Source: Fimbriimonadaceae bacterium (GTDB taxonomy: Bacteria; Armatimonadota; Fimbriimonadia; Fimbriimonadales; Fimbriimonadaceae). Taken from it: a DNA stretch of 48,214 bases. The notes below the pieces were generated by a model, which searched no databases, was not told where the DNA came from, and saw nothing but the letters and a program-made list of their open reading frames with translations. The position numbers and the translations under genes are program-made. The stretch lies in the NCBI GenBank assembly GCA_022843485.1, contig JALHNM010000013.1:1-48214 (forward strand), in the 5' to 3' direction. Each line of letters opens with the position of its first letter. Position 1 is the first letter of the stretch. This document shows positions 37,179 through 40,350 of this stretch, piece after piece.

Positions 37179-37410
37179 CGCTCTTGCCCCCGACCAGGAT
37201 TCTCGCGCAGATTACCTAAGTCGACCGCAAGGAGTCCCTATAGCTGAATTGGCCCGCGACTCTGTTCGTTGATGCTGGTGGACTCCCTGCCCGTGCCGGA
37301 CGAGCGACTGAGGCCGTGGTCGCCATGCTGTCAAGTCCTTTCCAGCTTGCGACACCTCGTTCGGCACCCCATGTGATCCCTCCCCCGCCACGGCAGAGGG
37401 GGCTTCGGGC

Positions 37411-37542
37411 TTAGTACCGGTACGACTCGCCCTTATACGGCCCCTCGACGGGGACGCCGATGGAGGCGGCCTGTTCGGGGGTGAGGGCGGTGAGCTCGAC
37501 GCCGAGCTTACTCAGCTGGAGGCGGACGACCTTCTCGTCGAG
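37411..37542 (-). pseudogene. Broken copy of the ahcY 3' end
   Basis: Minus-strand reading gives [17 protein letters not shown], then [20 protein letters not shown] and GESYRY-stop, matching the last 43 residues of the intact AhcY at 38232 with four changes. The upstream part is missing; it joins fragment B instead. The G-rich hairpin area past the stop is partly shared too. The rest of the 37179-37644 gap shows nothing else. Confidence 0.85.
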
Positions 37543-37644: not shown

Positions 37645-37917
37645 CTACCTGCGGCCCCCCGCCCGAGACTGGAGGGCGGCGTTAGGCGGCGAGGCTGAGT
37701 CGCGCCACTCCTGCTCGGGGATTTCTGCGCCCTTCAGTATGGCGACGAGCGTCCCAAGAGGGAGCGGCCGCCCTTTGTGCACGGGCACGACGACCTGCTT
37801 GTTCGCCGCGCTGTTTCGCCACTTGCGATGACTGCCCGACTGTGAGACGAGGGCGAATCCGTGAGTCTGGAGGAGTGACTCGACCTCCCCGCTCGTCATC
37901 CGCTTGACCTTGCCCAT
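37645..37917 (-). CDS. hicA: HicA family mRNA interferase toxin
   Basis: 90-residue double-stranded-RNA-binding-fold toxin that cuts mRNA. GEVESLLQTHGFALVSQSGSHRKWRN contains the GSH active-site histidine, and KQVVVPVHKGRPLPLGTLVAILKGAEI completes the fold. About 20 extra residues (WRDSASPPNAALQSRAGGRR) make it longer than typical HicA (about 60-80). The ATG shares one base with the hicB stop (TGATG), so the toxin is translated after the antitoxin. Confidence 0.9.
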   Translation of the reverse strand: MGKVKRMTSGEVESLLQTHGFALVSQSGSHRKWRNSAANKQVVVPVHKGRPLPLGTLVAILKGAEIPEQEWRDSASPPNAALQSRAGGRR

Positions 37918-38117
37918 CAGGCAGCGACTTCGACGATCTCAGCACCTTCGGAAACATCCAAGGGAGTAGGCTCGAGGTATAGGCGGATCGCTTCCTTGAT
38001 CCCATCCAGGGCCTCTTCGCGGGTCTTACCTGCCGAGGCACAACCGGGCAGCTCGGGGCACCAGGTGGCCCAATCGCCTGTTTCGTGGTCTTGTTCGACG
38101 ACGACTCGGAACTTCAT
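37917..38117 (-). CDS. hicB: HicB family antitoxin
   Basis: 66-residue antitoxin of the HicB N-terminal type. MKFRVVVEQDHETGDWATWCPELPGCASAGKTREEALDGIKEAIRL follows the degraded RNase H fold. A separate DNA-binding domain is absent, so autoregulation may need another factor. ATG 38117 has CATAAT 6 nt upstream; the longer open frame to 38165 is not needed. The order hicB-hicA is opposite to the Escherichia coli order. Confidence 0.9.
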   Translation of the reverse strand: MKFRVVVEQDHETGDWATWCPELPGCASAGKTREEALDGIKEAIRLYLEPTPLDVSEGAEIVEVAA

Positions 38118-38123
38118 GCGTCT

Positions 38124-38129
38124 ATTATG
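38124..38129 (-). promoter_or_regulatory. -10 box of hicBA
   Basis: CATAAT on the minus strand, 6 nt before ATG 38117. It fixes the hicB start. Confidence 0.6.
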
Positions 38130-38189
38130 CGTCCTGATCGTATCCTGAGGCAACATCCTCGTCACCCAGGTCAGGGGCGGCGGGACTGG

Positions 38190-38223
38190 GCCCCCTCTCC
38201 CAACAGGGGTTGGGAGAGGGGGC
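38190..38223. terminator. Long hairpin after ahcY
   Basis: 15-bp perfect stem GCCCCCTCTCCCAAC / GTTGGGAGAGGGGGC with a 4-nt loop, just past the ahcY stop (38232). No T-run. A degenerate relative lies past the ahcY fragment at 37381-37402. Confidence 0.65.
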
Positions 38224-38231
38224 TTCCGGGC

Positions 38232-39647
<1,416 letters not shown>

Positions 39648-39787
39648 GGTCTCTCTGTTCGATTGTCGGTCGTCTTCGAACGGATCGCTCGGCGGGCGTG
39701 TCTCCATCCCCACCCCCCTCCTTCGTTTCCAGGGCACGAGCCATCCCTGAAAGGCGGGGAGGGGACTACGGACGACGCACAAAGATA

Positions 39788-39818
39788 GGCGCCCGTGAGC
39801 GATCCACTCACGAGCGCC
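39788..39818 (-). terminator. Terminator-like hairpin overlapping the riboswitch
   Basis: GGCGCTCGTGAG / CTCACGGGCGCC (12 bp, one G-T) with TGGATCG loop, then TATCTTT. Its first 7 bases are also the 3' strand of the riboswitch P1 helix, so the two structures exclude each other. Confidence 0.6.
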
Positions 39819-39883
39819 GTTGCCTTCGCCCTGAAGGGCCGACACCGAGCCTGGTCCCCACGGGATCGCAACGCTCCTCGGTG
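39812..39883 (-). ncRNA. S-adenosylhomocysteine (SAH) riboswitch
   Basis: Minus-strand RNA with the conserved SAH riboswitch blocks: CCGAGGAGCG-U-UGC, CCAGGCUCGG, and GGCAACGGCGCUC. Helices: CACCGAG/CUCGGUG, GAGCG-UUGC with GCAA-CGG-CGCUC, and a small GCCC-UUCA-GGGC hairpin. It lies between a TATAAT promoter and ahcY, the known genomic place of this class. SAH binding should stabilise P1, block the overlapping hairpin and turn ahcY on. Confidence 0.92.
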
Positions 39884-39892
39884 CCTCACTCG

Positions 39893-39898
39893 ATTATA
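39893..39898 (-). promoter_or_regulatory. -10 box of the ahcY riboswitch transcript
   Basis: Perfect TATAAT on the minus strand, 9 nt before the riboswitch. The TAA stop of the Nudix gene is part of this box. Confidence 0.7.
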
Positions 39899-40343
39899 CG
39901 GTCGCGAGCCCTGTGGAGTCGCTCTGGGCTTGGGCCGCGGCCCGTGCCCGTAGGACGAGCGGGACGACTGGGGTCTCCTCGAGCTCGTCGACGGGCAAGA
40001 ACTCGCAATGGTCGGTCGAGCCTTCGGCCTCGGCCCGCAACGACCCGCCGAGCACGGTCGCGAGGTACACGATGCGCACGGCATGGAGCGGCCCACGAGA
40101 GCTGGCCACGAGTTCGGCGTGGGCCTCGACGATGGGGCCGAGCCGGACCTCAAGACCCGTCTCCTCGCGTACCTCGCGGAGGCATGCTTCGGCGAGGTCC
40201 TCTCCGAACTCGACCCCGCCTCCAGGCAGGGTCCACCGCCCGCCGTCGGGCTCACCCCCCGCGAGCCGGCACAGCAAGACTCGGCCCTCTCCGTCCGTCA
40301 CCCACGCATAGCAGGCCACCCTGACCCAAGGCTGTTCGGTCAT
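39894..40343 (-). CDS. Nudix hydrolase
   Basis: 149 residues. It cleaves a nucleoside diphosphate linked to some other group X. The full Nudix box is visible, GGGVEFGEDLAEACLREVREE followed by TGLEV (about 42-67), with the metal-binding REVREE. It belongs to the general ADP-ribose/MutT-like branch; the substrate is unknown. ATG 40343 is favoured by TAACGT 7 nt upstream over GTG 40349. The stop codon lies inside the -10 box of ahcY, so the two genes are adjacent on one strand but have separate starts. Confidence 0.9.
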   Translation of the reverse strand: MTEQPWVRVACYAWVTDGEGRVLLCRLAGGEPDGGRWTLPGGGVEFGEDLAEACLREVREETGLEVRLGPIVEAHAELVASSRGPLHAVRIVYLATVLGGSLRAEAEGSTDHCEFLPVDELEETPVVPLVLRARAAAQAQSDSTGLATV

Positions 40344-40350
40344 GCCCACA

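Follow-up and report, generated by a model that had tools for sequence, protein, structure and literature searches.

Known SAH-sensing systems and the present locus

In beta- and gammaproteobacteria, SAH riboswitches of the RF01057 family are known to precede ahcY (Leyn et al. 2014, PMC4239095). The SAM/SAH riboswitch RF01727 can also bind SAH (PMC7367207) and sits before metK in Rhodobacterales (PMC4239095). It belongs to a different class from the switch described here, and cmscan gives no RF01727 match in the window, the whole stretch of 48,214 nucleotides from a Fimbriimonadaceae bacterium that was analysed. A likeness of another kind is found in the ZMP (pfl) riboswitch, an ON-type transcriptional strand-exchange system whose aptamer is pseudoknotted and whose ligand keeps the terminator from invading the aptamer's 3' helix (PMC10907184); its ligand and aptamer differ from those of the present switch, where the shared strand is part of the pseudoknot helix P4.

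The ahcY leader element of the window shares with the proteobacterial members of RF01057 the aptamer sequence blocks, the P1/P2/P4 architecture, the place before ahcY and the expected SAH-on logic. It differs from them in its host, which belongs to Armatimonadota, and in its expression platform, a putative terminator that overlaps P4, whereas nearly all sampled proteobacterial copies lack such a terminator and several pair the P4 strand near the Shine-Dalgarno (SD) sequence or the AUG. A literature search whose reach stopped short of the class-founding papers returned no earlier report of an SAH riboswitch in Armatimonadota or Fimbriimonadales. The locus brings into Armatimonadota a class whose descriptions come mainly from Proteobacteria.

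The aptamer and the gene it precedes

The window was initially annotated as carrying an SAH riboswitch before ahcY, with a covariance-model search named as the check. That search, performed with cmscan, bears the assignment out: the minus strand matches RF01057 over the full model (positions 1-78) with 47.6 bits against a gathering threshold of 37 (E 8.2e-06), and the alignment shows every conserved block intact. The match is the sole Rfam match in the whole window and the only RF01057 match in the whole genome. Helices P1 and P2 and the pseudoknot P4 can all be formed, with every pair standard at the coordinates of Table 1, and the element stands upstream of a SAM-cycle gene, as does the rest of the family. 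When the aptamer stretch is folded alone with pseudoknots excluded, the best fold lacks P1 and P2. Judged by its sequence, the leader element is an SAH riboswitch and a clean member of the known class. Many proteobacterial copies score higher (60-66 bits), which would fit an aptamer that has lost its response to SAH by decay or by a change of specificity, but the intact blocks and the family-typical position before ahcY make this very improbable.

Table 1. Features of the ahcY leader and its surroundings, in window coordinates
Feature	Position	Strand	Remarks
-10 promoter box TATAAT, perfect	39893..39898	-	sequence
SAH riboswitch aptamer (RF01057)	39805..39885	-	cmscan 47.6 bits
P1 5' strand GGCACCGAG	39877..39885	-	pairs with 39849-39841
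P4 pseudoknot 5' strand GAGCGT	39871..39876	-	6 pairs with 39817-39812
P2 hairpin	39855..39865	-	arms TCCC 39865-39862 and GGGA 39858-39855; loop GTG
P1 3' strand CTCGGTGTC	39841..39849	-	pairs with 39885-39877
Optional linker hairpin GCCC-TTCA-GGGC	39828..39839	-	39839-39836 with 39831-39828
P4 3' strand GCGCTC, proposed switching strand	39812..39817	-	common to the terminator 5' arm
Predicted 14-bp terminator hairpin	39788..39818	-	arms 39818-39805 and 39801-39788; loop 39804-39802
U-rich tail TATCTTT, weak U-tract	39781..39787	-	sequence; directly 3' of the stem
Dispersed palindromic repeat	39700..39777	-	stem holds AAGGAGG (39723-39717); further copies in this genome and the sister genome
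ahcY, S-adenosylhomocysteine hydrolase	38232..39647	-	Pfam PF05221 AdoHcyase, 4.4e-145

The start of ahcY is taken as the ATG at 39647-39645, and the relatives begin at the matching position; an in-frame ATG at 39707-39705 is a less likely alternative start. The 3' end of the gene is duplicated as a 145-bp direct repeat (92%) at 37398-37542 and 38219-38363, 821 bp apart, and the two copies flank a HicA/HicB-like pair (37645-38165). Downstream of ahcY in three relatives that were checked, no convincing match to this pair was found.

Promoter and upstream gene

The perfect -10 box lies at such a distance from the aptamer that transcription likely starts at the first base of P1, or 1-2 bases from it, as judged from the usual spacing. 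The box is conserved: of 44 Armatimonadota loci, 36 have a -10-like box with at least 5/6 matches in the 20 nt ahead of the aptamer, compared with 0.2% of control stretches. The gene upstream of the switch is a Nudix gene (39894-40349), whose stop codon TAA (39896-39894) falls inside the -10 box. Since this gene shares the strand of the switch and ends within the box, the hairpin downstream could be its terminator, overlapping the aptamer by chance; but the upstream stretches of 43 other Armatimonadota loci were tested and the Nudix gene was found in none, while most of these loci have the hairpin, and this explanation, which we give hardly any credence, was rejected because the Nudix gene is not conserved there.

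Predicted terminator hairpin and proposed mechanism

Between 38100 and 40500, the hairpin at 39818-39788 is the only terminator-like site found. It is G+C-rich and stable, with a folding energy of -25.8 kcal/mol and a z-score of -6.0 against shuffled sequences. A hairpin of 12 pairs followed by TATCTTT had been described here from the sequence; hairpin and tail are both present, and the stem has 14 pairs. The same description had one hairpin strand in common with P1, which does not hold, as the P1 3' strand has no overlap with the hairpin and it is the P4 3' strand that is shared. Nucleotides 39817-39812 can thus be used by P4 or by the hairpin, in mutually exclusive pairings. Folding energies come to about -8.2 kcal/mol for the P4 duplex and about -27.2 kcal/mol for the hairpin when its flanking bases are included, so the ligand-free state is predicted to favour the hairpin. 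Because the two structures exclude each other, SAH should permit readthrough and turn on the hydrolase that acts on it.

It is very probable that the SAH riboswitch controls ahcY by antitermination. RNA polymerase would start at or beside the first base of P1, and the aptamer would be transcribed first. Bound SAH would stabilise P1, P2 and the pseudoknot P4, which would keep 39817-39812 in P4, block the base of the hairpin and let transcription proceed into ahcY. When SAH is missing, the stronger hairpin would take this strand and transcription would end in the U-rich tail. P4 would be favoured both by the bound ligand and by the fact that the aptamer is made first, and SAH would in this manner induce the enzyme that removes it. 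The computed basis of this model comprises the aptamer match, the exclusive pairings, the promoter box, the identity of the gene, and the conservation and covariation in relatives. We infer SAH binding, the kinetics and the effect on readthrough, binding and readthrough by analogy with the RF01057 family, and ligand-raised expression from the mutually exclusive pairing. The compact unit of promoter, aptamer and terminator gives a clear prediction, namely that SAH raises readthrough.

Of the 8 bases scored for the tail of the hairpin, 5 are T, many relatives have better tracts, and in a same-genus relative the tail is CTTTTTCG. Since TATCTTT is short and interrupted, termination in the window species may be leaky.

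The leader repeat and possible translational control

The remaining leader between terminator and ahcY had initially been said to form further stems. A stem does fold at 39700-39777, but it is not part of the switch: it is a dispersed palindromic repeat with other copies in the genome. The leader stems were rejected as a switch component on this ground, and they therefore do not speak for a second switch. The repeat (39700-39777, and loci L184-L200) is roughly 80 nt long, and several copies are found in reading frames that stay open. Its pattern has 6 matches in the genome of the window and 18 in the sister genome, against 3 and 7 for a reversed control pattern, so some of the matches may be due to chance. 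One copy is inserted in frame in the sister AhcY (L112). The repeat resembles the Rickettsia palindromic elements.

The weak U-tract of the window would also be compatible with an SAH riboswitch in which the main role of the hairpin in this species is to curb translation or RNA stability, or in which the repeat stem that hides AAGGAGG is the real control point. This SD-like motif is strong and lies ahead of the in-frame ATG 39707, and the P4 strand is paired near the SD or AUG in some proteobacterial relatives (L050, L070, L071, L061, L087). As read from the sequences, however, the P4-overlapping terminator is present and the repeat absent in relatives outside the genus, and the sister's repeat copy is out of frame with ahcY; moreover, the same repeat occurs at other genome sites, also in open frames. 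Control by translation, RNA stability or the repeat stem is for these reasons improbable, and antitermination is the preferred reading.

Conservation within Armatimonadota

RF01057 is present in 26 of 61 genomes, which are the window's own and 60 relatives, and in 69 of 291 Armatimonadota genomes at E <=0.001, 64 of these being above gathering. For the expression platform, 44 Armatimonadota loci were read, and a hairpin of -10 kcal/mol or better that overlaps P4 and has 4 or more T among the 8 bases that follow it was counted as a terminator. One locus (L151) was set aside because its P4 strand was not found, which left 43 scored loci, and 39 of them have the P4-overlapping terminator, while the U-rich terminator is absent in four (L012, L024, L026, L145). 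A separate run with a slightly different P4 search found it in 23 of 26 loci, and in most of these 0/100 shuffles did equally well.

At stem positions 1-6 the 5' side keeps the aptamer strand and variation is seen on the 3' side only, and at positions 7-12 both sides vary. The distal pairs 8-12 are paired natively in 94% of cases, against 59% after the arms are swapped between species. The Armatimonadota terminator stem covaries.

Two loci deserve separate mention. L024, one of the loci without terminator, has a GGAGG close behind the P4 strand and looks translational. In L011, a degenerate second copy of the 3' part of the aptamer (AACGGCGCTCG) lies at about 1745-1830, between terminator and ahcY.

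Association of the switch with AhcY types

A strong AhcY match, defined as E 1e-120 or better, is found in 92 genomes. All 65 genomes whose AhcY has at least 78% identity (families f1 and f10) have an RF01057 match, which is above gathering in 61 and below it in G167, G168, G170 and G171. None of the 27 genomes with an AhcY of about 61-68% identity has such a match, and relatives with the AhcY type of about 45% identity also have none. This split of 65/65 against 0/27 by AhcY type suggests that the gene and the riboswitch travel together. Four further genomes bear the switch and have no long AhcY match: in G054 and G146 the contig ends soon after the switch, in G162 ahcY is broken up, and in G134 the switch scores below gathering.

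In the AhcY tree, f1 forms one clade, and the neighbours of f10 are Corallococcus and Hylemonella (99/95). A single clade of f1 and f10 nevertheless passes the AU test without rejection (p 0.117), so two separate entries of AhcY into Armatimonadota are only suggested. Tentatively, and with more doubt than confidence, we propose that Armatimonadota acquired the switch together with ahcY in a single cassette, at least once and perhaps twice (f1, f10), and that a resident AhcY was displaced; the platform would then have changed, possibly independently each time, from the translational form apparently common in proteobacteria to a terminator. The 69 matching genomes among 291 offer a natural series for studying how a single aptamer, after apparent gene transfer, comes to work with different expression platforms.

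Copies outside Armatimonadota

The sample from outside Armatimonadota consists of the loci nearest to the AhcY of the window and does not stand for all proteobacteria; it has 64 RF01057 matches, 57 of which are scorable. Four of these 57 have a hairpin and T-rich tract that pass the same thresholds (L035, L037, L061, L087). On reading, the hairpins of L035, L061 and L087 look like structures that cover the SD or the AUG and were rejected as terminators, which leaves L037 as the one terminator. L220 and the first aptamer of the tandem loci described below likewise show a terminator-like hairpin on the P4 strand, and therefore this platform is not unique to Armatimonadota.

A 2022 review (PMC9481103) counts SAH among the riboswitch classes not found in tandem. 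In L037, a Burkholderiales MAG, a tandem of RF01057 matches precedes ahcY, at 1796-1865 and 1898-1984, and the same close pair is found in four more (G334, G335, G336, G347) among 98 genomes of its family. Five species of one Burkholderiales family (L037, L216, L217, L218, L219) thus have tandem SAH riboswitches ahead of ahcY. As read in all five sequences, a hairpin with a T-rich tail starts with the P4 strand of the first aptamer, and the second aptamer has a P4 of GGGCGC/GCGCCC type just before the SD and ATG of ahcY.

According to Leyn et al., metK is not controlled by SAH riboswitches (PMC4239095). In a Sulfuriferula MAG (L060), an RF01057 match at 579-650 lies just upstream of a gene with a metK-like start.
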